Position numbers and translations under genes: made by a program
Notes under the pieces: model-generated
The model's input: only the letters and a program-made list of their open reading frames with translations
What the model was told of the DNA's origin: nothing
Databases searched by the model: none
Shown: piece after piece, positions 27,091 through 48,959 of the stretch
Layout of the letters: each line of letters begins with the position of its first letter
How positions within the stretch are numbered: the first letter of the stretch is position 1
Source of the DNA: Sporosarcina pasteurii
GTDB taxonomy: Bacteria; Bacillota; Bacilli; Bacillales_A; Planococcaceae
Direction: 5' to 3'
Length of the DNA: 64,000 nt
NCBI RefSeq assembly: GCF_041295575.1
Contig: NZ_CP160452.1
Location: 992,001 to 1,056,000 of the forward strand

Positions 27091-28428
27091 GTGAAAAAGA
27101 AGATGAAGGTGGTTCTGATGTCGACAGTCATTGCCACATCAGGGGTTTTCATTATTCCAGGACAAGTATTAGAGCCGACGACTGTATTGGCAGCACCTGG
27201 ACAAAGCGAGGCGGCGCATGATCAGAAAGTGATTGCACCAATTAGTGAGAAGCGGATGTACGCGGATGTGTATCATTTATCGGAAACGATTGGTCCTCGT
27301 GTAACAGGGACAGAGGAAGAGAGGGAGGCCGCAAGTTTTATTAGAAACCGTCTTCAATCCTATGGATATGAAGTTGAAGTCCAGGAGTTTAGAATTCCGG
27401 ATAAGATGATTGGACATTTGCAAACTTCTGCGGGGGATGAAGTACTCATCAATATTCCTGCTGGATCCGCCTCAACAGCCAGTGAGGGGTTAACAGCGCA
27501 ATTATATGATGCGGGGTTAGGCTATGCAAATGACTTCACGGCAGAATCGGCTGGTAAGATTGCGTTAATTTCGCGAGGCGACTTTACGTTCCAGGAAAAA
27601 GTTGAAAACGCATACGCGGCAGGGGCGGTTGGCGTCCTGATTTATAACAATATCGAATCGCCAGGCCCATTAAATCCATCTATTGGTGAAGCATCAATTC
27701 CAGTAGGAGGCATTTCAAAGGCGAGCGGAGAAGCGCTTATCGCGGATGTAGTTAGGAACGATGGCACAGTTACTTTAAAGGTCGATGCATTAACAGATGT
27801 GAAATCGCAAAACATTATCGCGACACGTGCACCAAAAAAAGGAAATAACCATGAGATTTTGCACGTTTCTGCACATTTTGACAGCGTACCATTTGCACCA
27901 GGCGCAAATGATAACGCATCTGGAACTGCGGTTACGTTAGAACTCGCACGCGTGTTAAAGAGCTATCCGATTGATAAAGAAATTCGATTTGTCTTTGCCG
28001 GTGCTGAAGAAATCGGCTTGGTAGGTTCAAGATATTATGCGAGCCAATTGACTGAAGATGAAATTTCACGAAGCATTGGTAACTTTAACATGGATATGGT
28101 CGGGACAAGTTGGGAGAATGCAACGGCAATTTATATGAACACAGTCGACGGCAAAGCAAACATTGTATCGGAAACGGCACTGGCGACTGCGGAAAGAATT
28201 GGGACACCATCAGAATTAGTGCTTTACCAAAGAGGCTCATCGGATCATGTTGCGTTCCATGAAGTAGGCATTCCGGCGGTTAACTTTATTCGCAGGGAAC
28301 CTGGAACGGCGAATTTGGAGCCTTACTACCATACGCCGCTCGATACGATTGAACATATTAGTACTGAACGTTTAAAAGAAGCGGGAGATTTGGTAGGCGC
28401 TTCAGTCTATCAATTAATTAGAAAATAA
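27091..28428 (+). CDS. Secreted M28 family aminopeptidase with PA domain (first of pair)
   Basis: A 445-residue exported zinc peptidase. Signal peptide near 1-35 ending in a VLAAPG region; then a lid segment, a protease-associated (PA) insert near 125-230, and the M28 catalytic core. Zinc ligands and catalytic residues: SAHFDSV and GANDNASGT (His, bridging Asp), GAEEIG (catalytic Glu and ligand Glu), NMDMVG (Asp) and YYHTPLD (His). GTG 27091 has GGGAGGAG upstream. Expected to release N-terminal residues from peptides outside the cell. Confidence 0.9.
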   Translation: MKKKMKVVLMSTVIATSGVFIIPGQVLEPTTVLAAPGQSEAAHDQKVIAPISEKRMYADVYHLSETIGPRVTGTEEEREAASFIRNRLQSYGYEVEVQEFRIPDKMIGHLQTSAGDEVLINIPAGSASTASEGLTAQLYDAGLGYANDFTAESAGKIALISRGDFTFQEKVENAYAAGAVGVLIYNNIESPGPLNPSIGEASIPVGGISKASGEALIADVVRNDGTVTLKVDALTDVKSQNIIATRAPKKGNNHEILHVSAHFDSVPFAPGANDNASGTAVTLELARVLKSYPIDKEIRFVFAGAEEIGLVGSRYYASQLTEDEISRSIGNFNMDMVGTSWENATAIYMNTVDGKANIVSETALATAERIGTPSELVLYQRGSSDHVAFHEVGIPAVNFIRREPGTANLEPYYHTPLDTIEHISTERLKEAGDLVGASVYQLIRK

Positions 28429-28449
28429 GAGAGTAGGGGTGTTTACTAG

Positions 28450-29847
28450 ATGAAGAAAAAGTTTATATCTATTGCACTAGCGGGAGCACTTGTATTTAGT
28501 GCATCACCGGCAACGTTTACGCCTGTTGACGCGAAAACGCCAGTTGTTGTCAACAATGGTAAATCTGATTCTGCCCATGACCAGAAAGTCGTTGCAAGAG
28601 TCGAAGCAGAAAGAGCGATTGAGCATATTAAATATTTATCAGAAACAATCGGCCCGCGAGTTGGTGGACTGGAGTCAGAAAAGGAAGCTGCCGATTACGT
28701 AGCGTCTCAGCTGAAAAGTTACGGGTATGATGTTGAGTACCAATACTTTCCAGTAGCGGATCAATATATTGCAGATGTAACATTTGCGGATGGTACGTCT
28801 TGGCAACTTGGCGCTGCACCAAATGGGAAAATAAGTGACGAAGCAGTTTCTGCAGAAGTTGTTTACGTAGAAGGAGGAACCCATGCAGGAGATTTCTCTA
28901 AAGACGTTGAAGGAAAAATCGTTTTATTAACTCGTGCAAATTCGACAACAGACTATCGTTTACAAGTGGACCACGCAGTGAATGCTGGAGCGGCTGGTGT
29001 TATTTTACAAAGCGTTGTAGGTGGTAGAGGAAACTATGGATCTACATTTAACCCAAGCTTAACCCAGGAATATGATGTGCCAGTCTACGGTGCTGCTTAT
29101 ATTCAAGGTGTATGGCTACAAGAGCGGTTGGAAGAAGGACCTGTTGAGCTTCAATTAACAGCAACACATTACACAGATTTAGAATCGGTAAACGTAATTG
29201 GTACGAAGAAAGCGAAAGGCAATAACGCTGACGGTAAAGAAGTTATTTTGAGTGCACATATGGATAGCGTTGTAGGCGCACCAGGCGCGAATGATAATGC
29301 TTCTGGAACGGGACTAATGCTTGAGTTGGCACGTGTCTTTAAAGGCTATCACACAGATAAAGATTTGAAGTTTATCGCATTCGGATCGGAAGAACGAGGA
29401 CTGCTTGGTTCGCGTTACTATGTAGACCAGTTGTCACAGGCGGAGCGTGACAAGATTGAGGCGGTCTTCAATCCAGACATGGTTGCGACAAATTACGAAG
29501 CTGCCACGCATCTCTATGCAATGACTGTAGACGGTAACGAAAATATCGTAACTAAATCTGCGACAGCAGCAGGTGCGCGCCTTGGAAACTCTGCGATTTT
29601 ACCAGGTAGATTTGGTTCAAGTGACCACGTACCATTCCATAATGCAGGCATTCCATCTGCATTGTTCATTTGGATGGGCATTGACAGCTGGGATCCATTA
29701 ATTTACCATATCGAAAAAGTGTATCATACACCGCAAGATACAATTGAAGATAATATTTCGGCAGAACGTATGCAAACGGCATTAGATATTATCGGTGCAG
29801 GATTGTTTGATGTTGTTAGAAAAGATGTACCAGGGCTCAAAAGGTAA
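28450..29847 (+). CDS. Secreted M28 family aminopeptidase with PA domain (second of pair)
   Basis: A 465-residue paralogue of the preceding gene with the same order: signal peptide, a shared SAHDQKV segment after it, PA insert and M28 core with SAHMDSV, GANDNASGT, GSEERG, NPDMVAT and YHTPQD. The EE pair in GSEERG is intact, so it should be active. It follows after 21 bases and probably shares a transcript. The two differ mainly in the PA region, which may set substrate choice. Confidence 0.9.
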   Translation: MKKKFISIALAGALVFSASPATFTPVDAKTPVVVNNGKSDSAHDQKVVARVEAERAIEHIKYLSETIGPRVGGLESEKEAADYVASQLKSYGYDVEYQYFPVADQYIADVTFADGTSWQLGAAPNGKISDEAVSAEVVYVEGGTHAGDFSKDVEGKIVLLTRANSTTDYRLQVDHAVNAGAAGVILQSVVGGRGNYGSTFNPSLTQEYDVPVYGAAYIQGVWLQERLEEGPVELQLTATHYTDLESVNVIGTKKAKGNNADGKEVILSAHMDSVVGAPGANDNASGTGLMLELARVFKGYHTDKDLKFIAFGSEERGLLGSRYYVDQLSQAERDKIEAVFNPDMVATNYEAATHLYAMTVDGNENIVTKSATAAGARLGNSAILPGRFGSSDHVPFHNAGIPSALFIWMGIDSWDPLIYHIEKVYHTPQDTIEDNISAERMQTALDIIGAGLFDVVRKDVPGLKR

Positions 29848-34521: not shown

Positions 34522-34842
34522 CTATTTTCCTCTCACCTCTAAATATTGGATAATTATATCCAGTTTCATGTCTAATGAGGTTAACTGGTTCTTTACTTCG
34601 TTTAATAGCTCAATATACTTTTTAGACTCATTGGATTCAACACTTTCAAATCTTCCATCTTTGCTGAGGGCTGCTCTCTTAATGGCCTCTAATTCATCTA
34701 TATTCACTTCTTTTACTTCAAAATTCGATTTTTTATCGACAACATTTAACTCAACCTGATCCAGTATTTCGTTAAACTGTTTCATATCCGGGAAATGTTT
34801 CTTCAATTCATTTTTTAATAAATCTTTATCATTTTTCGTCAC
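34522..34842 (-). CDS. Small unknown protein coupled to the coiled-coil gene
   Basis: About 106 residues, acidic and helical, with a heptad-like C-terminus (LLNEVKNQLTSLDMKLDIII). No membrane helix. GTG 34842 lies inside the end of the upstream gene (overlap 14 bases) with GAAAGGATGA ahead, indicating translational coupling and perhaps complex formation with that protein. Family not recognised. Confidence 0.6.
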   Translation of the reverse strand: MTKNDKDLLKNELKKHFPDMKQFNEILDQVELNVVDKKSNFEVKEVNIDELEAIKRAALSKDGRFESVESNESKKYIELLNEVKNQLTSLDMKLDIIIQYLEVRGK

Positions 34843-36079
34843 GCATATCATCCTTTCTAGGTGCGTTTGGTTTCGCTTCATCAATCCTCTGGTAATTCCT
34901 AAAGGGTTTCTGGAGTCTAACCTTTTTCTGTCCAGACCCTTTGATGATTTTCTTACCGAAATCCTTTTTTCTTGTCAAAGGCTTTCGATTTCTTTCAGCT
35001 TTTTGATGCTCATTATGCTCAGAACTATTTTGTTGATAGTTATTCGTCTTTGTCGAATGATTTTCCGAATGTTTTTTACTTCCAGGTTGCACGTTATTTT
35101 TCTTTTCTTTATTTGACCTTGTGCGCCCAAATAAAACAGAATGAAAATGCCTGACTTGCCTTAAAACCTTTTCTGACATAGCTTCTTGATTTTCTAACCG
35201 AGTTAAAAACTCTGCCTGACTTTTTGTTTGCTCTAGGACTAGTTCATTTAGTTGCATGTGCATTGTCATTTGCTCATCTACTTTTTCTCCTGTTTGTTCG
35301 TTTATAAGCGCATATTGATTGACCTTCTCCATGAGTTCATTTTTTGTTTTCTGAAGGGCATTTATATGATTCATCCATTCTTGTTCAGACAACTGTTTAT
35401 GCTTAAATTGTAGTTGCAACTCCTGATAGGCTGCGTCTACATCAAGTAACTTTCGCTCTATCGAGTCATACTTTTCTTGTAATTCTTTTAGTTGGTTTAA
35501 CTGGTTTTTTATTTCAATCGAGCGGATATTGTCTAGTTGTTTTAGAGTTTTTGCCGAAAGCTGCTCTTGGATTTCTAATCGTTCCGCGACTTGTTCATTT
35601 ACTTGCTTGTGTGCTGAAATTTGTTTATTGACCTTATTTTCGACTTGTTTGTTTCTGAGTGCATATTGCTTGAGTTGTTCCATCATTTCGCTTTGTGCTT
35701 TTTGAAGGGCATGTATTTGATCCATTTGCTCTTGTTCAATTAGTTTTTTATGAGTAAATTGTTGTTGTAGTTTTCGGTTCGCTGTCTCTAAATCTAGTAG
35801 CTTTTGTGTAAAATGTTTTTCTCGTTTATCGTGATATTCATACAGTTTATTAAATTGATGATTCATTTCAGACCTTTGTGCTTTTTGCTTATTATTTTGT
35901 TGTTGGGTTAGTTTTTTTAGTTCTAAAATGGATTGGTGCAATGTATGATTGATCTTTTGTTGCTCATTTAATAGTTCCGATAAATGATCTCTCCTAAAAA
36001 GTTTCTGATTTGTATTTGTTAGTTCCTCTTGATTTTTATATATACTTTTATGTTTATCATGATTGATAAATAAACCCAT
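34829..36079 (-). CDS. Large coiled-coil protein with internal duplication
   Basis: About 416 residues. Residues 50-310 are almost entirely Gln/Lys/Glu-rich coiled coil; the block starting LLDLETANRKLQQQF near 94 is repeated as LLDVDAAYQELQLQF near 211, an offset of 117 residues. The last 100 residues are very basic and Asn/Lys/Arg-rich. No signal peptide. ATG 36079 has GGGAGGGAAGG upstream; the frame is open further but without a site. A sigma-K-like CATAAGCTA lies upstream at 36114-36122. I suspect a structural role, possibly in the spore coat; not a recognised family. Confidence 0.68.
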   Translation of the reverse strand: MGLFINHDKHKSIYKNQEELTNTNQKLFRRDHLSELLNEQQKINHTLHQSILELKKLTQQQNNKQKAQRSEMNHQFNKLYEYHDKREKHFTQKLLDLETANRKLQQQFTHKKLIEQEQMDQIHALQKAQSEMMEQLKQYALRNKQVENKVNKQISAHKQVNEQVAERLEIQEQLSAKTLKQLDNIRSIEIKNQLNQLKELQEKYDSIERKLLDVDAAYQELQLQFKHKQLSEQEWMNHINALQKTKNELMEKVNQYALINEQTGEKVDEQMTMHMQLNELVLEQTKSQAEFLTRLENQEAMSEKVLRQVRHFHSVLFGRTRSNKEKKNNVQPGSKKHSENHSTKTNNYQQNSSEHNEHQKAERNRKPLTRKKDFGKKIIKGSGQKKVRLQKPFRNYQRIDEAKPNAPRKDDMRDEK

Positions 36080-36113
36080 CTTTTCCTTCCCTCCCTTATA
36101 TCCATTTACTTTA

Positions 36114-36122
36114 TAGCTTATG
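36114..36122 (-). promoter_or_regulatory. Sigma-K-like -10 element
   Basis: On the minus strand CATAAGCTA fits CATANNNTA, 35 bases before the start at 36079. I do not see a good -35 at the right distance. Confidence 0.25.
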
Positions 36123-36360
36123 CAATAAGAAAAAGCGGCGCGACAAGTCAATGGATAATGTAAAACGAAATACATACAAAGAAGGCTCTATTTGTAGCTC
36201 ACCTCGACTATAAAAATGGTCAAAAGGCACTCTATGTATACTGAGTGAGTATTCAGAAAATAAACTTGATTAAGCTTGTGCACTCATCTATCCTTTAGAT
36301 TAAGAGAATTTGTACTATTTAATTGTATGATTTATTAGTTCAATCGAAAGGATGAGAGAA

Positions 36361-37483: not shown

Positions 37484-37497
37484 ACTGACCGGTTAGT
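37484..37497. promoter_or_regulatory. TetR operator 1 (acyl-CoA operon 1)
   Basis: ACTGACCGGTTAGT, a near-perfect 14-bp palindrome centred on CCGG, flanked by CAT on the left and GCATG on the right. It lies 22 bases before the start at 37520, so it overlaps the transcription start region. Two close relatives occur at 42402 and 42437. Confidence 0.78.
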
Positions 37498-37519
37498 GCA
37501 TGAATTTGAAGGGATGGGA

Positions 37520-38758
37520 ATGTTGATGAACTTTTCATATTCAGAGAAAACAAAGGCGTTAATTGAAAAACTTACGGGGTTTATGGAAGCGTATGTGTAT
37601 CCGAATGAAAAAGTATTTGAAGAGCAATTGGCGGCCCAGAAAGATCGGTGGTCTGAAGTTCCTCCAATTATTGACGAATTAAAAGAAAAAGCCCAAGAAC
37701 AAGGGCTATGGAATTTGTTTCTTCCCGACAGTGAACTTGGAGCGGGGTTGACAAATTTGGAGTATGCACCACTTTGCGAGATTATGGGGCGTTCTCCCAT
37801 TGGTCCGGAAATTTTTAATTGCAATGCGCCAGATACTGGAAATATGGAGGTGCTCGTTCGTTACGGAACTGAAAAGCAGAAGAAACAATGGCTCGAACCT
37901 CTTTTACAAGGAAAAATCAGGTCCTGTTTTGCAATGACTGAGCCTGATGTTGCTTCAAGTGATGCGACGAATATAGAAGCCAGTATTGTTCGTGACGGGG
38001 ACGAGTATGTACTAAATGGTCGGAAATGGTGGACGTCAGGAGCAGGGGATCCTCGATGTAAGATTGCCATATTTATGGGGAAGAATGATCCGAATGCGCC
38101 ACGATATGAACAGCAGTCTATGATTCTCGTACCGCTAGATACGCCTGGCGTTAAAATTGAGCGAATGCTCTCAGTATTTGGTTTTGACCATGCACCACAC
38201 GGACATGCAGAAATTACTTTTGAAAATGTCCGAGTGCCGGTGGAAAATATCATTTGGGGAGAAGGAAAAGGATTTGCCATAGCACAAGGTCGTCTTGGGC
38301 CCGGAAGAATTCATCATTGTATGCGATTAATTGGCGCAGCTGAACGTGCACTTGAACAAATGTGTATTCGGGCGCAAGAGCGAACCACTTTTGGGAAAGT
38401 ATTAGCAGATCAAGGTGTCGTGAGAGAGTGGATTGCGGAATCGCGTATCGACATTGAACAAGCGAGACTGTTAACATTAAAAGCCGCCTACATGATGGAT
38501 ACCGTCGGGAATAAAGAAGCGAAAACTGAAATTGCTATGATTAAAGTAGTGGCACCGGGTATGGCACTACGTGTGATTGACAGAGCAATCCAAGCGTTTG
38601 GCGGCGCAGGGGTAAGCCAAGATTTTAACCTTGCTGCACAATGGGCAAGCTCAAGGACTTTGCGACTTGCGGATGGACCGGATGAGGTACATCGCAATCA
38701 AATCGCACGTCTGGAACTTCGAAAATACGCTTCGAAAGAAATGGTGAAACAATCGTAA
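37520..38758 (+). CDS. Acyl-CoA dehydrogenase, ACAD10/ACAD11-like
   Basis: An FAD enzyme of about 412 residues with N-terminal helical, central beta and C-terminal helical acyl-CoA dehydrogenase domains; [16 protein letters not shown] near 135 is the FAD/substrate block. The C-terminal signature reads [10 protein letters not shown] near 383-392, typical of ACAD10/11 proteins, instead of the usual YEGTSEIQR; the catalytic Glu position of MCAD is Asp385 here. ATG 37520 lies 6 bases after AAGGG; ATG 37526 is an alternative. First gene of operon 1, two genes ahead of an APH-fold kinase, the partner found in ACAD10/11. Confidence 0.88.
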
Positions 38759-38785
38759 TAAAGACAAGGAAAGGTTGTGGGGTCG

Positions 38786-39346
38786 ATGAAACAAGAAATT
38801 ACAAAACATAGTGTGAAACTTTTCCAAGAGAAAGGTTTTAGTGAAACGTCCATCCAAGATATCGTCGACTCGCTTGGCGTAACAAAGGGGACATTCTATT
38901 ATTACTTTAAAAGTAAAGAACAGCTTTTAATGGATATCCATTTACGCTATATTGATGAATTACTGGATTTTCAAAAGGAAATTATTGAAAACGAGCAGAC
39001 CTGCAGAGACAAGGTTGTAAAAATCGTTGGGCTTATTATTGGTGATATTAAATCACAAAGAGCGAATGGACGGGTGTATTTCCGTGAAATGAGAAACTTG
39101 AAAGCCGATAATGCGGAAATAATCAAAGCGAAAAGATCTGAATTTCGAGAAAAGCTTGAGCGAATCATTGTCGAAGGAATGGAATCGGGCGAATTCCGGC
39201 ATAATTTGAACGCTAAAATGATTACACTTGCAATTTTAGGTGTAACAAATTGGACATACCAATGGATGGATCCATCAGGTGATGTGACAGTTGAAGAAGT
39301 TGCAGAGATGTTTGCAGATTTTGTACTACACGGGATTCACGTTTAA
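38786..39346 (+). CDS. TetR family transcription regulator
   Basis: About 186 residues. Helix-turn-helix near 20-45 with SIQDIVDSLGVTKGTFYYYF, the classic TetR recognition helix, then an all-helical ligand domain. Embedded between the acyl-CoA dehydrogenase and kinase genes of operon 1, so it should be autoregulated through the operator at 37484 and probably represses operon 2 through 42402/42437, with an acyl-CoA as the likely inducer, as for FadR/PaaR-type relatives. ATG 38786 preferred over GTG 38777. Confidence 0.9.
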   Translation: MKQEITKHSVKLFQEKGFSETSIQDIVDSLGVTKGTFYYYFKSKEQLLMDIHLRYIDELLDFQKEIIENEQTCRDKVVKIVGLIIGDIKSQRANGRVYFREMRNLKADNAEIIKAKRSEFREKLERIIVEGMESGEFRHNLNAKMITLAILGVTNWTYQWMDPSGDVTVEEVAEMFADFVLHGIHV

Positions 39347-39393: not shown

Positions 39394-40449
39394 TTGAATG
39401 ATACAATCTCAATTCGTAAAGGTGAAGAGCTTAATCCGGAAAAATTGGCGCATTTTCTTCACAATAAAGTTGATGGATTACCAGAAGGGGAACTAAACAT
39501 CCGTCAATTCGGCACGGGGCATTCAAATTTGACGTATGCACTTGAAATAGACGGTTGGGAAGCAGTATTAAGACGTCCACCGCTAGGTCCAATTGCGCCG
39601 AAAACACATGACATGAAAAGGGAATTTGCGATTCTCTCTGCACTCAATCCTGTGTTTCCCACTGCACCTAAACCAATCGTATTTTCGGATGATTTATCGA
39701 TTACGGGAAGTCCATTTTTCATTATGGAGCGAAGACATGGTATTGTGTTAGATAGTGAATTTCCAGTTGGAACAGAGGACCAAGAGGCGCTTGGGCAGCA
39801 TCTTTCTGAACAAATGGTTGACAAACTAGTTGAGTTACATGCCATTGATTATAAACAAACTGCATTAGCGGATATGGTAAAGCCAGATGGATTTCTGGAA
39901 AGACAAGTACATGGATGGATCGGTCGATATGAAAAAGCGAAAACATCCGAAATTGCAGAAGTTGAGCAACTGACCACTTGGCTGATTCAACACATTCCAA
40001 AATCGCCAGAACCAACGATTATTCATTATGATTATAAATTTAATAATGCAATGTTTTCACATGACTACACGTCTATGAATGGTTTATTCGACTGGGAAAT
40101 GGCGACGGTTGGGGATCCGCTTGCAGACGTTGGGGCGGCGATGAGTTATTGGATGCAAGCAGATGATCCTGTAATGTTACTGAATGGCCTGGGAAAGCCA
40201 CCGTTAACAACGAAAAAAGGATTCTATACCCGTGATGAATTTATCGCAAGTTATGCAGAAAAAAGTGGTCGTGATATGACGGACATTCATTATTACACAA
40301 CATTTGCTTACTTTAAATTAGCTGTTATTTGCCAACAGATTTATTATCGTTATAAAAAAGGGCAAACAAATGACCCGCGCTTTAAAAATATGGATAAATT
40401 TGTATACAGTCTTGTTTGCCATTCACTAATGGAGACGTCGAAATCATAA
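39394..40449 (+). CDS. APH-fold phosphotransferase (ACAD10/11- and LvaA-like kinase)
   Basis: A 351-residue kinase of the aminoglycoside-phosphotransferase fold. Nucleotide loop FGTGHSNLTY near 39-48; catalytic HYDYKFNN at 201-208 (Asp203, Asn208) and metal-binding FDWEMATVGDPLADVG near 222-237 are intact. This subfamily occurs fused to or beside ACAD10/11-type dehydrogenases and includes LvaA of the levulinate pathway, which phosphorylates 4-hydroxyacyl-CoA. TTG 39394 follows GGGGTGA. Its stop overlaps the next start (TAATG). Resistance to aminoglycosides is not a likely role in this setting. Confidence 0.87.
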   Translation: MNDTISIRKGEELNPEKLAHFLHNKVDGLPEGELNIRQFGTGHSNLTYALEIDGWEAVLRRPPLGPIAPKTHDMKREFAILSALNPVFPTAPKPIVFSDDLSITGSPFFIMERRHGIVLDSEFPVGTEDQEALGQHLSEQMVDKLVELHAIDYKQTALADMVKPDGFLERQVHGWIGRYEKAKTSEIAEVEQLTTWLIQHIPKSPEPTIIHYDYKFNNAMFSHDYTSMNGLFDWEMATVGDPLADVGAAMSYWMQADDPVMLLNGLGKPPLTTKKGFYTRDEFIASYAEKSGRDMTDIHYYTTFAYFKLAVICQQIYYRYKKGQTNDPRFKNMDKFVYSLVCHSLMETSKS

Positions 40450-41183
40450 TGGGAAAGCATAAGTTACATGTATTACTTTCTAAAGAGGAAGTTAATCCAG
40501 AAAAAATCGACCCGGAAACAGTAGTCGTTGTGTTTGATGTATTGCTGGCGACGACAACGATAGCAGCAGTCCTACAGTACGGTGCGAATGAAGTCATTCC
40601 AGTTGTAAATGGAGGGGAAGGATTAAAGGTTGCGGAAGGTTTGCAACAAACAGCCACGATACTAACCGGTGAATACGGCGGGAGGACAATCGAGGGATTT
40701 ATCGAGCCGTTGCCGACGATACTCAGAGATTTAGTGGCCGAAAAGACAATGATATTGTCTACGACGAATGGAACCGTTGCAATTCGAAACGTGACAAAGG
40801 CGAAGAATATTTATGCGGCATCACTTGTAAACGCTTCCGCTGTCGCAAAGGAGATAGCTACTAACCATACAGATAAAAAAGTACTCCTCGTTTGTGCAGG
40901 CGGATCGAACCGGCGATTTGCAATGGAAGATTTTTATGGTGCGGGCTGCTTTATCGACAAATTAATGCATCAAAATCCTTCGTGGGCATTAACGGATTCT
41001 GCAAATACGGCACTTTTGTTTTACCGTGGAAATGAAACGGAGAGTGAGCGTATATTAACGAATTCCGAAACGGGTCAAATGCTAGTGCAGATGGGATTAG
41101 TAAAGGATGTTCGATTTGCGAGTGAAATCGATCGAATTGACGTAGTTCCGCAATTTGAAAATGGGGAAATGACTTTGAAATAA
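40449..41183 (+). CDS. 2-phosphosulfolactate phosphatase family protein (ComB-like)
   Basis: A 244-residue member of the ComB family. VVVFDVLLATTTIAAVLQYGA near 26-46, LSTTNGTVAI near 105 and CAGGSNRRFAMEDFYGAG near 150 follow the family, but the usual DVLRA, TNGTRA and CAGxxGRF-type positions carry Leu, Val and Ser-Asn-Arg, so specificity may have changed. The start overlaps the kinase stop by one base (TAATG), implying tight coupling to the kinase. No other coenzyme M or sulfolactate gene is nearby. It might remove phosphate from a misphosphorylated intermediate; inference only. Confidence 0.82.
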   Translation: MGKHKLHVLLSKEEVNPEKIDPETVVVVFDVLLATTTIAAVLQYGANEVIPVVNGGEGLKVAEGLQQTATILTGEYGGRTIEGFIEPLPTILRDLVAEKTMILSTTNGTVAIRNVTKAKNIYAASLVNASAVAKEIATNHTDKKVLLVCAGGSNRRFAMEDFYGAGCFIDKLMHQNPSWALTDSANTALLFYRGNETESERILTNSETGQMLVQMGLVKDVRFASEIDRIDVVPQFENGEMTLK

Positions 41184-41199
41184 TAAGGGGGACATACAA

Positions 41200-42198
41200 G
41201 TGGAAACGACAAAAGTAAAAACAATGAAAGCGATTCAGTTTGAAAAACATGGTGGTCCGGAAGTATTGAAATTTACAGACGTCGAGCAACCAGAAATTGG
41301 TCACCATGACGTGTTAGTGAAAGTAAAAGCAATCGGCGTAAATTATGCGGACACAGCACGTCGGGAAGGAAAATATGTCGTGCCAACTCAATTACCTTTC
41401 ATTCCTGGTGCAGAAATTGCGGGTGAAATTGTGGCGGTCGGAAAAGATGTCACTCGTTTCAAGCCAGGGGCGCGAGTTGTATCCCTAATTGAATCAGGCG
41501 GATATGCAGAGTATGCAAAAGTTCATGAAATGGTTCCTGCGCCTATTCCAGATGGCGTAACATTTACGGATGCAGTCGCTTTACCTTTGCAGGGACAAAC
41601 AGCGTATCATATTTTAAAGACGATGGGACGACTTGAAAAAGGCGAAACTGTGCTCGTTCATGCTGCAGCGGGTGGTGTAGGGGCGATTTCTGTTCAACTT
41701 GCTAAAATTTTCGGGGCTGGAAAAATTATCGCAACGGCAAGTAGTGATGAAAAACTAGCGCACGCAAAAGAAATGGGCGCTGATCACCTAATTAATTACA
41801 CAGAGGAAGGCTGGGAATTAAAAATCAGAGAATTAACAGGTGGCAAAGGTGTCGACGTTGCACTTGAAATGGTTGGCGGAGATATTTTCAACAAGACCCT
41901 TAAATGTTTAGCGCCTTTTGGACGATTAGTCATATTCGGGGCGGCAAGTGGCGAGCATGCAGCGCTTAACCCAGGGCAATTGATGCGTCGAAATCAATCT
42001 GTTATCGGTTTTTTCCTTCCACAAATTATGAAAAACATGGAACTGTATCAAAGAAGTTTTGAGGAATTACTCAAGTTTATTGACGAGGGAAAGCTTCAAT
42101 TAACAATAGGCGGTACGTATCAATTGGAAGACGCGGCTGAAGTTCATCGCTTACTTCAAGGAAGAAAAACGATGGGTAAATTAGTATTGCATCCTTGA
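41200..42198 (+). CDS. Quinone oxidoreductase-like enoyl reductase (MDR superfamily)
   Basis: A 332-residue NADPH-dependent oxidoreductase of the medium-chain dehydrogenase/reductase superfamily, without the structural or catalytic zinc Cys residues. GroES-like domain near 30-125, nucleotide fold with AAAGGVGAISVQLAK near 153 and the QOR pattern KVKAIGVNYADTARREG near 42-58. GTG 41200 follows AAGGGGG. Last gene of operon 1; it could reduce an unsaturated acyl or ketone intermediate. Confidence 0.85.
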   Translation: METTKVKTMKAIQFEKHGGPEVLKFTDVEQPEIGHHDVLVKVKAIGVNYADTARREGKYVVPTQLPFIPGAEIAGEIVAVGKDVTRFKPGARVVSLIESGGYAEYAKVHEMVPAPIPDGVTFTDAVALPLQGQTAYHILKTMGRLEKGETVLVHAAAGGVGAISVQLAKIFGAGKIIATASSDEKLAHAKEMGADHLINYTEEGWELKIRELTGGKGVDVALEMVGGDIFNKTLKCLAPFGRLVIFGAASGEHAALNPGQLMRRNQSVIGFFLPQIMKNMELYQRSFEELLKFIDEGKLQLTIGGTYQLEDAAEVHRLLQGRKTMGKLVLHP

Positions 42199-42496: not shown

Positions 42497-43267
42497 ATGA
42501 CAACATCATTATTTGATTTAAAAGGAAAAACAGCAATTGTGACAGGGGGCGGTAGTGGATTAGGGCGGGATATTGCAAAAGTATTTGCTGAATACGGAGC
42601 AAACGTCGCAATTTGTTCACGAAAATTAGAAAACTGTCAAGATACTGCGACTGAAATTGAAAATGAATATGGCGTTAAAACAATGGCATACGAATGTGAT
42701 GTAAGTCAGGAAGAGCATGTTAAACGGATAGTAGAATCAGTCATTGCTGATTTTGGTCAAATCGATATTCTTGTTAACAACAGTGGCGCGACGTGGGGTG
42801 AAAAAGTAGAGGACATGCCATTAGCAGCTTGGAACAAAGTGTTTGATGTTAACGTAACAGGCACTTTCCTCATGTCTAGAGAAGTTGGAAAGAATATGAT
42901 TTCGAACGGTTCTGGAAAAATCATTAATATCGGCTCTGTTGCCGGGATGAAGGCAGAATCAGGCGAAGTATTGAATGCAATCGGCTATAGCTCAAGTAAA
43001 GCAGCTGTCCACCACTTCACGAGAGATTTGGCGAAGAAATGGGCAGAACACGACATTAATGTCAATGCAATTGCACCAGGATTTTTCGAAACAAAAATGA
43101 CAAGAGGTGTGCTTGAGAAAAGTGGGGATAAAATCCGAAACAATAACCCTATGAAGAGATTAGGAGACCCAGATTCATTGAAAGGTATTGCGCTTTTTCT
43201 AGCCAGTAACGCAAGTAGTTTTATCACTGGACAAATAATTGCAGTAGACGGCGGAAGTTCTCTATAG
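42497..43267 (+). CDS. Short-chain dehydrogenase/reductase (first)
   Basis: A 256-residue SDR with NAD(P) motif TGGGSGLG near 17-24, NNSGA near 94 and catalytic Ser/Tyr/Lys in the order GSVAG...YSSSKAAV near 145-170. VDGG at the end is usual. First gene of operon 2, directly after two TetR operators. By analogy with LvaD it could interconvert a 4-oxo and 4-hydroxy acyl-CoA, or serve as a 3-hydroxyacyl-CoA dehydrogenase. AGGAGGGGG precedes the start. Confidence 0.88.
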   Translation: MTTSLFDLKGKTAIVTGGGSGLGRDIAKVFAEYGANVAICSRKLENCQDTATEIENEYGVKTMAYECDVSQEEHVKRIVESVIADFGQIDILVNNSGATWGEKVEDMPLAAWNKVFDVNVTGTFLMSREVGKNMISNGSGKIINIGSVAGMKAESGEVLNAIGYSSSKAAVHHFTRDLAKKWAEHDINVNAIAPGFFETKMTRGVLEKSGDKIRNNNPMKRLGDPDSLKGIALFLASNASSFITGQIIAVDGGSSL

Positions 43268-43287: not shown

Positions 43288-44889
43288 ATGGACAGACCGT
43301 GGATGCAACATGTAGCAGAAGGAAACCCGAAGCACGTCGAGATCCCAATCTTATCTCTGACACAATTGCTCGGCGAAGCCATCGCAACTTATCCCAAGCA
43401 TACCGCGATGACATTTTTTAAAAACACATATACCTATACCGATCTGGATGAAAGGATTAAGCAAACGGCATGTGCACTGAATGAAATGGGTGTTGAAAAA
43501 GGGGATCGAGTTGCACTGATGCTTCCAAATTGTCCCCAATATCCAATTAGCTTTTACGGGGCACTTCATTGCGGGGCTACAATCGTTCAAGTGAATCCGA
43601 TGTATCAAGCATCTGAGCTCATTCATATTTTAAATGATTCGGGCACAAAGGTCTTGATCATTATGGATAAATTACTACCCTTATTTGAAAGTATTCAAAA
43701 ACAAACGCCGGTTGAAAAGGTGATTGCAGTCTCTATTGAAAGCAGTTCTATGCCGAATGAACTCGTCCCAAATGCAGAAAGTGTAATGCCGGAAGTAGAT
43801 ATAAATCCTACGGAAGATGTTGCTGTCCTACAGTACACAGGCGGAACAACAGGTACGCCAAAAGGTGCGATGTTAACCCATTTTAATATCGTCGCCAACA
43901 CATTACAAAGCGCAGCGACCTCTTTTGCGAAAACGAATTTCGGTCAAGAACGTGTTTTAACAGCAATCCCGTTATTTCACGTTTATGGCATGACAAGTGC
44001 AATGTGTGTAACTTTTCATATCGGAGGCAACTTAATATTGGTTCCTAAATTTGAAGTAGAGCAACTTGTTTCAATCATTGAAAAGACGAAACCTACTTCG
44101 TTTCCTGGGGTGCCTACGATGTATATCGCACTCGTTAATTATTATAAAACAAAAAAATTCGATTTAAGCTGTCTCAATTTATGTTCAAGTGGTTCAGCAC
44201 CTTTGCCTCTTGAAATACTCAATCGTTTTAATGAAATAAGTGGTACGACTGTTGCGGAAGGGTATGGGCTTTCGGAAGCTTCACCAGTCACTCACCGAAA
44301 TCCAGTTAAGGGGTTACAAAAAGAAGGAAGTATTGGCATTCCGATTCCAAATACGGATTCCAAAATTGTTGATGTAGCTACTGGGGAACAAACACTTCCA
44401 TACGGTGAAGTTGGAGAACTTATCATAAAAGGCCCACAAATTATGAAGGGCTATTGGAATCAACCAGAGGAAACGGAACATACAATTCGCAATGGCTGGT
44501 TGTACACTGGTGATCTTGCAACGATGGATGCTGACGGTTTCTTTTATATTGTCGGAAGGAAAAAAGAAATGATTATTGCAAGCGGATACAATGTCTATCC
44601 AATCGAGGTGGAAAATGTCATTTATACACATCCAGCGGTCCTTGAAGCAGCTGTTTTTGGCGTACCTGATAAATATAGAGGAGAAACAATCCGTGCAGTT
44701 GTTGCATTAAAGAATGATCACACAATAACTGAAAAGGAACTACTTGAGCACTGTCGTTCAAATTTATCGGCATATAAAATACCTGAAGATGTCATCTTCG
44801 TAGATGAACTTCCTAAAACAGCTGTAGGGAAAATCTTGAAAAGAACACTACAAGAGCGATATACAACCGTTAATTCGAAATCTAAATAA
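43288..44889 (+). CDS. Acyl-CoA synthetase (AMP-forming fatty acid-CoA ligase)
   Basis: A 533-residue ANL-superfamily ligase that activates a carboxylic acid with ATP and CoA. Motifs: YTGGTTGTPKGAML near 183-196 (P-loop), YGLSEASP near 327, YTGDLA near 408 and the C-terminal hinge GRKKEMI followed by GKILKR near 515. A full-length enzyme. It supplies the acyl-CoA substrate for this operon and implies uptake of a free acid, fitting the ABC importer at its end. Confidence 0.92.
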   Translation: MDRPWMQHVAEGNPKHVEIPILSLTQLLGEAIATYPKHTAMTFFKNTYTYTDLDERIKQTACALNEMGVEKGDRVALMLPNCPQYPISFYGALHCGATIVQVNPMYQASELIHILNDSGTKVLIIMDKLLPLFESIQKQTPVEKVIAVSIESSSMPNELVPNAESVMPEVDINPTEDVAVLQYTGGTTGTPKGAMLTHFNIVANTLQSAATSFAKTNFGQERVLTAIPLFHVYGMTSAMCVTFHIGGNLILVPKFEVEQLVSIIEKTKPTSFPGVPTMYIALVNYYKTKKFDLSCLNLCSSGSAPLPLEILNRFNEISGTTVAEGYGLSEASPVTHRNPVKGLQKEGSIGIPIPNTDSKIVDVATGEQTLPYGEVGELIIKGPQIMKGYWNQPEETEHTIRNGWLYTGDLATMDADGFFYIVGRKKEMIIASGYNVYPIEVENVIYTHPAVLEAAVFGVPDKYRGETIRAVVALKNDHTITEKELLEHCRSNLSAYKIPEDVIFVDELPKTAVGKILKRTLQERYTTVNSKSK

Positions 44890-44918
44890 ATATAATTATA
44901 AGAGATGGAGTGACCGAT

Positions 44919-46097
44919 ATGCATTTACGTTTATCAGAAGAACAAAAAATGGTTCAACAAACAATTAGAAGATTTGTAGAAAAAGAGCTAATTCCACTTG
45001 AATTTGAAGTGTTAAAAAATGAACGTGAAGGAAAGCCGGGCATTTCACCTGAAAAACTTAGAGAACTGCAATTAAAAGCGAAAGAGTTCGGATTCTGGGG
45101 GATAAATACACCAGAGAAATACGGCGGAGCGGACTTAGGTCAAATGATGTTGGCGATTGTGTTAATGGAAGTATCTAAAACGTTTGTCCCTTTCACATTT
45201 GGCGGTTCAGCAGACAATATTCTCTACTATGGAAATGAAGAACAAAAGAAAAAATACTTAATTCCAACGATAAATGGAGAAAAGAAGTCTTGCTTTGCGA
45301 TTACAGAACCAGGTGCAGGATCAGACACGAGAAATATTCGAATGACTGCAGTGAAAGACGGCAATGAATGGGTTTTAAATGGGGAGAAAACATTTATCAC
45401 AGGCGGTAATGAAGCGGATTTCACCATGGCGATTGCGATCACAGATAAAGAAATGCATGCCAAATCAAAAGGTAGAAAAGGTGTCACTTGTTTCATCGTC
45501 GATCGAGATATGGGATGGAAATCTGAATTTATCGATACGATGGGCGAATGGGGACCAGCTGGCTTAGTATTCGATAATGTCCGTGTTCCGGAAGAAAATA
45601 TTTTAGGTGAGTTGCACGGTGGTTACAATCTGGGGCTAGAGTGGATCGGTTTTGCGAGATGGGTAGTCGGTGCACGTGCTGTCGGAATGGCAGAGCGACT
45701 GCTTCAAATGGCAATAGATTATTCAAAAGAAAGAGAGACTTTTGGAAAACCAATCGCAGATAGACAAGCGATCCAGTGGCCAATTGCAGATTCAGCGGTT
45801 GAGATTGAAGCAGCTAGATGGCTTGTCCTGAATGCGGCGTTTACGCTCGATCAAGAAGAAGATAACCGTCATCTAGCGGCAATGGCGAAACTGTACGGCG
45901 CCAATATGGGGAACCGCGTCGTTGATAGAGTTCTTCAAATCCACGGCGGAATGGGGTATACAAGAGAACTGCCGATTGAAAGATGGTACCGTGAAGCACG
46001 ACTGTGGAGAATTTATGATGGTACTGACGAGATCCAAAGACTGATTATTTCGAGAGATTTATTGAAGGGCAATGTAAGAGTCGGACAATACGTATAA
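44919..46097 (+). CDS. Acyl-CoA dehydrogenase (second)
   Basis: About 392 residues, complete three-domain enzyme. CFAITEPGAGSDTRNIRMTA near 126-145; C-terminal IYDGTDEIQR has Asp367 where MCAD has its catalytic Glu376. This Asp variant is seen in other family branches, so activity is not excluded. ATG 44919 has GGAG 8 bases upstream; GTG 44910 is in frame. It probably forms the 2,3-double bond of the acyl-CoA made by the ligase just upstream. Confidence 0.9.
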   Translation: MHLRLSEEQKMVQQTIRRFVEKELIPLEFEVLKNEREGKPGISPEKLRELQLKAKEFGFWGINTPEKYGGADLGQMMLAIVLMEVSKTFVPFTFGGSADNILYYGNEEQKKKYLIPTINGEKKSCFAITEPGAGSDTRNIRMTAVKDGNEWVLNGEKTFITGGNEADFTMAIAITDKEMHAKSKGRKGVTCFIVDRDMGWKSEFIDTMGEWGPAGLVFDNVRVPEENILGELHGGYNLGLEWIGFARWVVGARAVGMAERLLQMAIDYSKERETFGKPIADRQAIQWPIADSAVEIEAARWLVLNAAFTLDQEEDNRHLAAMAKLYGANMGNRVVDRVLQIHGGMGYTRELPIERWYREARLWRIYDGTDEIQRLIISRDLLKGNVRVGQYV

Positions 46098-46125: not shown

Positions 46126-46890
46126 ATGGGGAATCGTTTTAAAAATAGAACGGCAATCGTGACAGGCGGAAGTCGCGGAATTGGAAGAGCAATCGTCGAA
46201 CAGTTTGCTGGAGAAGGTGCAAATGTTGCCATAATTGATGTCAATGAAGAGGCGCTCGTCGAAGCGGAGAATTATTTAAAAGAACTAGGCTACGATGTTT
46301 ACACGAAAGTCGCCAGTGTGACAGAGCGAGATGAAGTTGAATCTGCAATGGAAGAAATCCATGAAAAGTTTGGTTCGATTGATATTTTAGTAAATAACGC
46401 TGGCGTTATTCGAGATAATTTACTGTTTAAAATGACAGATGAGGATTGGGATACCGTAATGGATGTCCATTTAAAAGGGGCTTTCTATGCATCGCGTGCT
46501 GCGCAAGCGTACATGACCAAAAATAATTATGGCCGCATTATTAATATTTCATCCACTTCTGCGTTGGGCAATCGCGGACAATCCAATTATGCGACTGCAA
46601 AGGCAGGTCTGCAAGGATTAACGAAAACGCTGGCGATTGAACTTGGTAAATTCGGCATTACAGCAAATGCGGTCGCACCAGGATTTATTGAAACAGATAT
46701 GACGAAGGCGACTGCTGAACGGATCGGCATTTCATTTGAACAATTAGTAGAGGCGAGCGTCAGTAATATTCCAGTCGGCCGAAGCGGTAAGCCTGCCGAC
46801 ATTGCCAATGCCATTCAATTCTTTGCGGATGAAAAGTCTTCATTTGTAAGCGGACAAGTGATTTATGTTGCAGGCGGACCTAAGGATTAA
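46126..46890 (+). CDS. Short-chain dehydrogenase/reductase, FabG-like (second)
   Basis: A 254-residue SDR: GGSRGIGRA near 15-23, NNAGVIRDNLLFKM near 92, catalytic Ser-Tyr-Lys in ISSTSALGNRGQSNYATAKAG near 145-165. NNAGVIRDNLLFKM and the length fit 3-oxoacyl reductase/3-hydroxyacyl-CoA dehydrogenase. Placed between an acyl-CoA dehydrogenase and two MaoC proteins, it likely oxidises the 3-hydroxyacyl-CoA made by them. Confidence 0.9.
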   Translation: MGNRFKNRTAIVTGGSRGIGRAIVEQFAGEGANVAIIDVNEEALVEAENYLKELGYDVYTKVASVTERDEVESAMEEIHEKFGSIDILVNNAGVIRDNLLFKMTDEDWDTVMDVHLKGAFYASRAAQAYMTKNNYGRIINISSTSALGNRGQSNYATAKAGLQGLTKTLAIELGKFGITANAVAPGFIETDMTKATAERIGISFEQLVEASVSNIPVGRSGKPADIANAIQFFADEKSSFVSGQVIYVAGGPKD

Positions 46891-46905
46891 ATAGGAGGTA
46901 GAAAG

Positions 46906-47355
46906 ATGCTAAAAGATGTGATTGGAAAACGTTCTGAAACGATAAAAAACACAATTGAAAGGGGCGCTGTGAAGAAATTCGCAGAAGCGATTGGAGATAT
47001 ATCATCTATTTATTATGACGAAGAGGCCGGGAAAAACTCCAGATTTAAACGGAATATTGCACCGCCAACATTCCCAGTAACGTTTGAGTTTGGTGCAGTG
47101 GCTGACTTGACATTACCATCAAAAGGACTCATTCACGGCGAGCAATCTTTTCATTATAAGCGTCCGTTGTTTGTAGGCGAAGACGTATATTGTTTCACGG
47201 AAGTGAAAGATTACTACGAAAAAACTGGAAGCTTTGGCAACATGGGCTTTCTCGTCTTGACACGTCACGGCCTTGATCGCAATGACGAACTGATCTTTAC
47301 AGAAGAGCGCGTCATTATTATTAACGAAGAAGTGCGAAAGGGGATGCTTGTATGA
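46906..47355 (+). CDS. MaoC-like N-terminal dehydratase domain protein (FAS1-DH type)
   Basis: A 149-residue hotdog protein like the N-terminal half of type 2 enoyl-CoA hydratases: AIGDISSIYYDEEAG and FKRNIAPPTFPVTFEFGA. It lacks the catalytic Asp/His pattern that the next gene carries, so the two probably make a heterodimeric hydratase. AGGAGGT precedes ATG and its stop overlaps the next start by four bases. Confidence 0.88.
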   Translation: MLKDVIGKRSETIKNTIERGAVKKFAEAIGDISSIYYDEEAGKNSRFKRNIAPPTFPVTFEFGAVADLTLPSKGLIHGEQSFHYKRPLFVGEDVYCFTEVKDYYEKTGSFGNMGFLVLTRHGLDRNDELIFTEERVIIINEEVRKGMLV

Positions 47356-47753
47356 GTACAATTACGGCACTGCAAGTAGGCGAAAGCTTAACTGACGTTC
47401 AATTAAATCCGGTTAGCCGACTTGATTTAATTAAATATGCGGGTGCATCGGGTGATTTTAATCCGATTCATACAATTGACGAAGAGGCAACAAACGCTGG
47501 TCTGCCAGGGATTATCGCACACGGTATGTGGACGATGGGCAACTTAGCAAAACTTTTCACACCTTACGTTGAAGAAGGGTTTATTAAAGATTATTCGATT
47601 CGATTTAGAGGAATGGTTTTTCTGGATGATGTGATTACGTTAAAAGCAACATTAGCGGAAAGAAATGAGAATGAGCTAACATTTAATGTCGTTGCGCTGA
47701 ATCAACATGAAAAAGAAGTTGTGAAAGGCCATATTGTTTTTCAAGAAGAATAA
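47352..47753 (+). CDS. MaoC-like enoyl-CoA hydratase
   Basis: A 133-residue R-type hydratase with the hydratase 2 motif in YAGASGDFNPIHTIDEEA near 30-47 (Asp and His catalytic), then GIIAHGMWTMG. The start ATGA overlaps the preceding gene. With that gene it should hydrate the 2-enoyl-CoA produced by the dehydrogenases. Confidence 0.9.
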   Translation: MSTITALQVGESLTDVQLNPVSRLDLIKYAGASGDFNPIHTIDEEATNAGLPGIIAHGMWTMGNLAKLFTPYVEEGFIKDYSIRFRGMVFLDDVITLKATLAERNENELTFNVVALNQHEKEVVKGHIVFQEE

Positions 47754-47786
47754 ACCAGAAATCAATAAACGAAGGGCGGAAATAGA

Positions 47787-48959
47787 ATGGGAAGAGATGC
47801 GGTAATTGTTTCAGCGGTTAGGACAGCGATTGCAAGACAGGGCGGTGCACTTGCATCGGTCCCTGCCCATGTTTACGGGGCGGAAGTAATTAAAGAAGCT
47901 TTAAGCCGGGCAAATGTTTCGGCTGATCAAGTTGACGATGTCATTATGGGGAATGTGTTAAGCGGCGGTGGCAATATTGCTAGATTGGCAGCTTTAGAGA
48001 CGGGCTTATCAATCAATATTCCAGGTCTAACAATAGACCGACAATGCGGTTCTGGCATTAATTCGATTAATTTAGCTGCACAAGCCATTTGGGCTGGAGA
48101 TGGTGATGTTTTCGTCGCAGGGGGCATTGAAAGTATGAGCCGGGCACCTTATTTAATGGAGCGTCCAGAAAAAGCGTACAATTCTATGCCGCCTCGCTTT
48201 ACAAAATCGCAATTATCGCCTGATGAAATTGGCAACCCGCCTATGGGGATTACAGCTGAAAATTTGGTGGAAAAATATGAGGTCGGACGAGAAGAACAAG
48301 ATGAATTTGCGCTTCAAAGTCAGCAGAAAATGGCTAGGGCTATGGAAGAAGGACGTTTCGATGAACAAATTGTCCCGATTACGATTCCGGTTCGAAAAGG
48401 TGAGCCGATTGTTTTTAAAGTAGACGAACATCCGCGCCCGGAAACGTCAATAGAAGCTTTAGCCAAATTACGTCCAGTTTTTCTTGAAGGCGGTACAGTG
48501 ACAGCGGGCAGTAGCTCTGGTTTAAATGACGCTGCATCGGCAGTTGTTGTAATGTCCAGAGAAAAAGCGGAACAATTAGGGGTAAAACCGTTAGCTGTTA
48601 TTCGTGCACATGCAGTCGCAGGGGTAGATCCGAACATTATGGGGATTGGTCCGGTTCCCGCTACAAATAAAGTATTAGAAAAGGCAGGCCTTCAATTAGA
48701 TGAGATCGATTTAATTGAAATTAACGAAGCATTTGCAGCCCAAGTGCTTGCCTGTAACCGTGAACTGAATATGGATCTCGAAAAAGTGAATGTGAATGGC
48801 GGTGCAATTGCTCACGGACATCCACTTGGCGCAACCGGGGCTATTTTAGCCACAAAAGCAATTTATGAGTTACAGCGTTCGGGCGGAAGGTATGCACTTA
48901 TTACGGCCTGTATTGGCGGCGGGCAAGGCATCGCAACAATTATTGAACGCGAACAATGA
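47787..48959 (+). CDS. Thiolase (first)
   Basis: A 390-residue acetyl-CoA acyltransferase. The nucleophilic Cys is in [10 protein letters not shown] near 89; INEAFAAQ near 345 and [14 protein letters not shown] near 340-360 carry the His, and CIGGGQG near 380 the second Cys. It cleaves a 3-oxoacyl-CoA. A second, less similar thiolase lies at 50552, suggesting two chain-shortening steps with different substrates. Confidence 0.93.

Follow-up and report, generated by a model that had tools for sequence, protein, structure and literature searches.

ComB is the 2-phosphosulfolactate phosphatase of coenzyme M synthesis, and the canonical enzyme acts on several 2-phospho-acids. This study concerns a member of its family (PF04029) whose genomic neighbors belong to another pathway. 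It is encoded at positions 40449..41183 on the forward strand of a stretch of 64,000 nucleotides from Sporosarcina pasteurii (contig NZ_CP160452.1, positions 992,001 to 1,056,000), referred to below as the window, and it follows the gene for a kinase of a type found in the phosphorylation-dependent breakdown of 4-hydroxy acids, a pathway only recently worked out in bacteria and mammals.

The Lva pathway of Pseudomonas has the same kinds of kinase (LvaA) and phosphate-eliminating dehydrogenase (LvaC) as the window, along with a short-chain dehydrogenase/reductase (SDR) and a ligase that joins acids to coenzyme A (CoA) (PMC6692424). The systems differ with respect to the phosphatase: P. putida has LvaB, and no phosphatase is named among the lva genes in the parts of that paper drawn on here, whereas the levulinate cluster of P. 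citronellolis, in which no LvaB was reported there, carries between its LvaA and LvaC homologues the gene for a phosphatase of the histidine type, not of the ComB fold. The authors suggested that this enzyme removes phosphate from 4-phosphovaleryl-CoA and, in those same parts, left its role for later work (PMC6692424). In mammals, ACAD10 joins a kinase and a dehydrogenase of the same kinds with a phosphatase-type domain (PMC11342911, PMC12440821). That domain has the HAD fold, unlike ComB, and is joined to the kinase. Its authors first expected it to dephosphorylate phosphoacyl-CoA but, in the sections drawn on here, they describe negligible phosphatase activity, propose that the domain restrains the kinase, and leave its role for later work (PMC11342911). 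The free acid 4-phosphohydroxyhexanoate is among the compounds that they measured in cells (PMC11342911).

The protein encoded in the window has 244 amino acids and matches PF04029 with a score of 197.2 bits against a cut-off of 26.4. The ATG at 40449 takes its A from the TAA that ends the kinase gene before it. The resulting TAATG is a junction of the kind typical of translational coupling, and the overlap claimed in the preliminary description of this DNA is real. The structure predicted for the protein (predicted local distance difference score, pLDDT, 94.4; predicted template-modelling score, pTM, 0.91) is a ComB fold along its entire length: it matches the ComB structures 1vr0, 2z0j and 2yyv with Z values of 37.5, 34.9 and 31.9 (the next match has 5.1), gives Foldseek template-modelling scores of 0.81-0.94 against the same three, and superimposes on 1vr0, to which the sequence is 33% identical, with a root-mean-square deviation of 1.3-1.4. 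The acidic and Asn residues conserved in PF04029 are present (D30, E75, N107 and D161, presumably catalytic), and two alignments of the clade, with 27 and 60 rows, show no variation at Asp30, Glu75, Asn107, Asn128 and Asp161. The protein departs from ComB at two other positions, both noticed earlier and both confirmed: Leu33 replaces the Arg of DVLRAT and Val110 replaces the Arg of TNGTR. Its score falls below the equivalog cut-offs of all eight NCBIfam models for 2-phosphosulfolactate phosphatase that it matched. This is the only PF04029 match in the S. pasteurii genome, and ComA (PF02679) was not found there, although the controls from B. subtilis and M. jannaschii were positive. The remark that no other coenzyme M gene is in view thus holds across the genome as far as these two families go, others not having been searched for.

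The kinase, encoded at 39394..40449 on the same strand, was called an acyl kinase in the preliminary description. It is better described as a predicted 4-hydroxyacyl-CoA kinase of the LvaA/ACAD11 type, matching 9o56 (1e-143), the kinase part of ACAD11 (3.7e-39), and also 3dxp. Three genes upstream of the ComB-like gene, at 37496..38758 on the forward strand, is the gene for an acyl-CoA dehydrogenase of the LvaC/ACAD11 type, which perhaps starts at the ATG at 37526, where relatives begin to match. The protein matches 4hr3, 2wbi and the ACAD11 structures 8v3u/8v3v with 475-511 bits, as compared to about 150 for MCAD, and adding 360 to the positions of its residues R266, R271, H274, R277 and D393 gives their counterparts R626, R631, H634, R637 and D753 in ACAD11 (in the 8v3u chain R626 and D753 have the indices 625 and 752, one below the numbering of the paper). 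Of these ACAD11 residues, R626, H634 and R637 have been linked to the phosphate group carried by 4-phosphoacyl-CoA, and a part in catalysis has been assigned to D753 (PMC12440821). By alignment, equivalents of R626 and H634 are lacking in two other dehydrogenases of the window. Because the kinase and the dehydrogenase are of these kinds, the operon appears to encode both central reactions of the route known from LvaA/LvaC and ACAD10/11, which would run here from 4-hydroxyacyl-CoA through 4-phosphoacyl-CoA to enoyl-CoA. Judging from these families, the operon would act on 4-hydroxy acids.

The association between the ComB-like gene and this route extends well beyond the window. In a sample of 261 genomes of the family, with LvaC called at E <= 1e-150, the ComB-like protein is found in 49 and LvaC in 108, and 48 of the 49 also have LvaC. 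The exception (G143, locus L071) carries a distant PF04029 protein with 22% identity and a different signature. The kinase is present in 48 of the 51 ComB-bearing loci of the family, less than 100 bases away in 30 and at 1.6-1.7 kb in 18, while the three loci without it come from genomes that encode it elsewhere; LvaC lies inside the fetched stretch in 45 of the 51. Among the best 80 of 403 relatives from named genomes, the kinase directly adjoins in 64 and lies within the locus in 73, the locus includes LvaC in 73, and three have neither. A survey of how often the subgroup sits beside such kinases had been proposed beforehand, and these counts bear out the pairing. In a broader sample of the class (299 genomes, ComB called at E <= 1e-30), LvaC occurs in 77 genomes, ComB in 31 and both in 27. 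The ComB genomes without LvaC have the kinase adjoining (G349), one gene off at about 1.3 kb (G368) or about 1.3 kb away (G388), or else have an Arg-type protein (G261, locus L286). Neither sample is independent of kinship.

Three gene orders were seen among the relatives (kinase-ComB, ComB-kinase and SDR-ComB-LvaC), and Bacilli contain a second kinase-linked set (L303, L304, L307 and L310), in which the ComB protein has Leu33, the dehydrogenases are 39-42% identical to LvaC and the kinase 45-49% identical; the three of these dehydrogenases that were aligned (L303, L307 and L310) read RLGPGRITHAMR/YDGADEVH. A plasmid of the haloarchaeon Halocatena salina provides a distant example. Its ComB gene, whose product is 32% identical to the window protein and has Ile33 and Arg110, shares bases with the 3' end of a phosphotransferase gene, next to genes for an SDR and for a divergent dehydrogenase that keeps the R, H, R and D of the signature (RLVPARLTHCMR, DGADEAH). 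The ComA query had no match among the genes of 172 loci from the family and the named genomes. With the pairing seen in three gene orders, in many loci of Bacillales and in two domains of life, chance neighbors were ruled out. The genomic link of the ComB-like clade to the 4-hydroxy-acid route is strong.

To place the change at residue 33, I examined PF04029 hits from 100 loci in Bacillota that had not been gathered according to that residue, 96 of them with a readable gene (the script found no ComB gene in L227, L274, L289 and L309). The set favors best-scoring, mostly Arg-type matches, and 60 of the 100 loci have flanks of only 1.5 kb. It was drawn after setting aside the family's own rows, 12 rows from one crowded genus (g44), matches not listed, and every sixth of the remaining 97 rows, leaving 81, of which 80 were sought and 40 obtained. 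Residue 33 is Arg in 86 of the 96 proteins, Leu in 8, Lys in 1 and Cys in 1. An LvaA-type kinase lies no more than three genes from each of the eight Leu33 proteins (directly adjoining in seven), and none of the eight has ComA, while none of the other 88 has the kinase beside it and 53 have ComA in the locus, recognized by PF02679 (285.7 bits). A motif scan that gave Leu in 80 of 80 cases was not used as evidence, since its pattern itself demanded Leu. In a tree of 144 proteins less than 80% identical to one another, built with columns 33 and 110 excluded, all 75 Leu33 proteins fall on one side of a single branch (Shimodaira-Hasegawa-like approximate likelihood ratio test, SH-aLRT, 99) and the ComA-linked members fall on the opposite side. 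Judging from these alignments and the tree, the changed Arg33 is a mark of the whole clade in Bacillota and not of the window copy alone.

Residue 110 divides the two sides less sharply. Arg110 is found in 68 of the 96 proteins, and a set of 133 rows from the Leu side has Val in 100, Ile in 21 and Arg in 10. Asp30, Gly74, Gly108, Asn128 and Asp161 are common to all 96, Arg-type proteins included, and Asn107 is present in 93. Gly164 occurs in 133 of 133 Leu-side rows as compared to 9 of the 96, a set that itself includes the 8 Leu proteins. I would file the window protein as a member of a kinase-linked clade within PF04029 rather than as a 2-phosphosulfolactate phosphatase.

I consider it somewhat more probable than its contrary that a ComB-fold phosphatase has been recruited here to the phosphorylation-dependent breakdown of 4-hydroxy acids, and that it clears phospho-intermediates that stall on the route or leave it. 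A kinase and a dehydrogenase of the LvaA/LvaC (ACAD10/11) kinds in the cluster point to 4-phospho-hydroxyacids, or the CoA esters of these, as likely substrates. The genomic evidence agrees with the earlier suggestion of a new substrate, for which a phosphorylated hydroxy acid was named as an example, and supports it in this sharper form. The LvaA-type kinase would phosphorylate a 4-hydroxyacyl-CoA, and the LvaC/ACAD10/11-type dehydrogenase would then remove the phosphate by elimination, leaving an enoyl-CoA that can enter beta-oxidation. The ComB-like enzyme, made right after the kinase, would dephosphorylate what fails to proceed: CoA-free 4-phospho-hydroxy acids, surplus 4-phosphoacyl-CoA, or hydroxyacyl-CoAs phosphorylated at a position from which phosphate cannot be eliminated. 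Hydroxy acid and CoA would thereby return to the pool. A role in scavenging or safety is the most economical one, because hydrolysis of an intermediate on the path merely undoes the work of the kinase. Among the papers listed by literature searches, none was seen to tie ComB to the 4-hydroxy-acid pathway.

The residue changes can be accommodated by this proposal. Residues 33 and 110 presumably contact the substrate, and the replacement of Arg33 (and, in the branch of the window, also of Arg110) by an aliphatic residue would fit an alkyl chain in the place of the second acidic group, the sulfonate. Arg and Asn are common ligands of sulfonates in general, according to the portion of a survey drawn on here (PMC8473560). 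Neighboring thioesterase-like enzymes could yield CoA-free phospho-acids: within the span from one gene before the kinase to two genes behind it, 34 of 74 loci (73 by a stricter filter) have a thioesterase-like gene, with none at that place in the window. In two loci (L184:9986-11710 and L189:9986-11710) ComB and an Abhydrolase_3 alpha/beta hydrolase share one frame of 575 residues; in six relatives (L174, L181, L185, L187, L188 and L208) the hydrolase has its own gene downstream. One might speculate that the fused hydrolase opens lactones or esters of hydroxy acids.

Several observations weigh against this proposal. The ComB-like gene is absent from 60 of the 108 LvaC genomes of the family. 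A tblastn search found no ComB remnant in 40 LvaC loci without the gene, while two positive controls were found; these loci come from 38 of the 60 genomes plus two others, and the single genus that accounts for 26 of the 60 is represented by 4. A similar cluster from the same genus as the window (L084) lacks the gene, its kinase running straight into the next dehydrogenase gene. Since so many LvaC genomes lack the ComB-like enzyme, the route seems to run without it. Absence from otherwise conserved clusters was the observation that the preliminary description had said would count against its suggestion, and these genomes display it in part. Nonetheless, what the distribution shows is that the gene is optional, and its absence does not make the link false. 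A substitute phosphatase in the ComB-less clusters was sought among proteins near the kinase (56 unlabelled proteins in 30 loci, the 10 of the 40 loci without a kinase being left out), and none appeared among the 25 of 63 families listed. Of the first seven LvaC plasmid regions examined, six lacked either the kinase itself or a phosphatase next to it, and only the Deinococcus region had an annotated phosphatase in that position.

The residue signature also has exceptions. Arg110 is retained both in the 10 Leu-side rows mentioned above and in the haloarchaeon. Arg33 is missing as well from proteins that have no annotated kinase as a neighbor: Ser replaces it in Prescottella, Rhodococcus and L071 (the Prescottella and Rhodococcus proteins are also without Glu75), and Gln replaces it in the ComBs of Halobacterium and Halostagnicola, whose genes (plasmid loci L321 and L322) adjoin genes for an ABC ATPase and an energy-coupling-factor transporter. 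These Gln33 and Ser33 cases mean that lack of Arg33 alone is no sign of a kinase link beyond Bacillota. The gene tables of the plasmids, as they themselves state, are incomplete. I at first read the haloarchaeal protein as an independent loss of Arg33, and abandoned that claim because it was not set apart from the Leu33 group in a second tree, to which eight plasmid proteins had been added (112 rows after thinning; the branches are long). A single group of the haloarchaeal ComB and the Leu33 clade is not rejected by that tree (p 0.77), in which the Leu33 rows require two changes rather than one. Finally, an enzyme that hydrolyzed the on-path intermediate would create a futile cycle, which makes repair an assumed role, and the negligible activity of the HAD domain of ACAD10 is an unfavorable precedent (PMC11342911).

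That precedent leads to another explanation, which I regard as unlikely, that the ComB-like protein binds and tunes the kinase with little or no catalysis. Elsewhere the neighbor of the kinase is LvaB or a histidine phosphatase, or else a HAD domain, and in P. putida LvaB interacts with LvaA and is needed with it, while the P. citronellolis cluster has the phosphatase gene and no LvaB was found, to take the passages of that report used here (PMC6692424); the HAD domain of ACAD10, as noted, is proposed to restrain its kinase (PMC11342911). Histidine phosphatases next to the kinase, that of P. citronellolis included, and the HAD domain of ACAD10 also count in favor of the phosphatase proposed above. 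Deinococcus deserti, Azospirillum, Ideonella and Pseudoalteromonas have a His_Phos_1 gene (PF00300, a family unrelated to ComB) directly behind the kinase, the same operon place as the ComB-like gene. The same match covers a phosphotransferase in 11 of the 13 rows from Deinococcus and in both rows from Pseudoalteromonas, and Sulfitobacter has the kinase/phosphatase pair in reverse order, with dehydrogenases that lack the LvaC signature. Against a binding partner, the invariant Asp30, Glu75, Asn107, Asn128 and Asp161 would suit a working enzyme, and the gene is 1.6-1.7 kb from the kinase in 18 of the 51 family loci and apart from it in three more.

It is also improbable, in my judgment, that the protein is a phosphatase of broad range for phospho-hydroxyacids (for example 2-phosphoglycolate or 2-phospholactate) that happens to be carried in beta-oxidation operons. 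The range of canonical ComB over several 2-phospho-acids lends itself to this idea, as does another PF04029 protein within a RuBisCO operon, but the tie is specific to the LvaA-type kinase, the archaeon included, and within Bacillota the Leu33 change tracks that kinase. A role as 2-phosphosulfolactate phosphatase, for sulfolactate or coenzyme M synthesis, is suggested by the family name, the Pfam score and the fold (1vr0, Z 37.5) and is highly improbable; I rejected it on the absence of ComA from the genome and from the 172 loci searched and on the position of the ComA-linked members across the tree, with scores below eight of eight NCBIfam cut-offs and the replacement of Arg33 and Arg110 pointing the same way.

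The remaining genes around the pair all lie on the forward strand. Between the dehydrogenase and the kinase is a gene for a TetR-family regulator (38777..39346), seen again in related cassettes. Downstream of the ComB-like gene are genes for a quinone oxidoreductase-like dehydrogenase (41200..42198), an SDR oxidoreductase (SDR1, 42497..43267; in many relatives a similar SDR lies between LvaC and the kinase), a FadD-like acyl-CoA ligase (43288..44889) and a second acyl-CoA dehydrogenase (44910..46097), its family named from sequence alone, which lacks the equivalents of R626 and H634 and retains both the R637 equivalent and an Asp in the position of the base. A beta-oxidation set follows at 46126..48959, consisting of two MaoC/FAS1-type hydratase parts and of what I take to be a FabG-like reductase and a thiolase. 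Farther away, the window contains two tandem genes at 27091-29847, presumably for M28-like secreted aminopeptidases, and one at 34829-36175 for a coiled-coil repeat protein of 448 amino acids to which the sequence alone gives no obvious name.

PF04029 genes were met in other settings as well. On a plasmid of Allomeiothermus silvanus (L317, 5932-6666), an Arg33 gene follows those for RuBisCO, cbbX, phosphoribulokinase, rpe and fba on one strand, and its product is a candidate for a phosphoglycolate phosphatase of the ComB fold. On a Mesorhizobium plasmid (L318, 5947-6711), a PF04029 gene overlaps a ribokinase gene, another pair of kinase and phosphatase, near genes of the dehydrogenase, mandelate racemase and gluconolactonase types. 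A DUF441 (PF04284) gene adjoins Arg-type ComB genes in one genome of Bacilli and in one more distant genome of Bacillota (L217:976-1443 and L241:939-1418).

If the preferred interpretation is right, the clade would be a dedicated repair phosphatase of the 4-hydroxy-acid route, the route would have recruited phosphatases from two or more unrelated families, not counting the HAD domain of ACAD10, and loss of the Arg on the sulfonate side would mark the switch, a generalization that I hold tentatively, at somewhat less than even confidence. Many genes of Bacillales named 2-phosphosulfolactate phosphatase are probably misnamed, and Arg versus Leu at residue 33 could serve to sort them within Bacillota. 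A single-domain, well-modelled phosphatase tied to the kinase makes the role of the phosphatase parts attached to this pathway directly testable.

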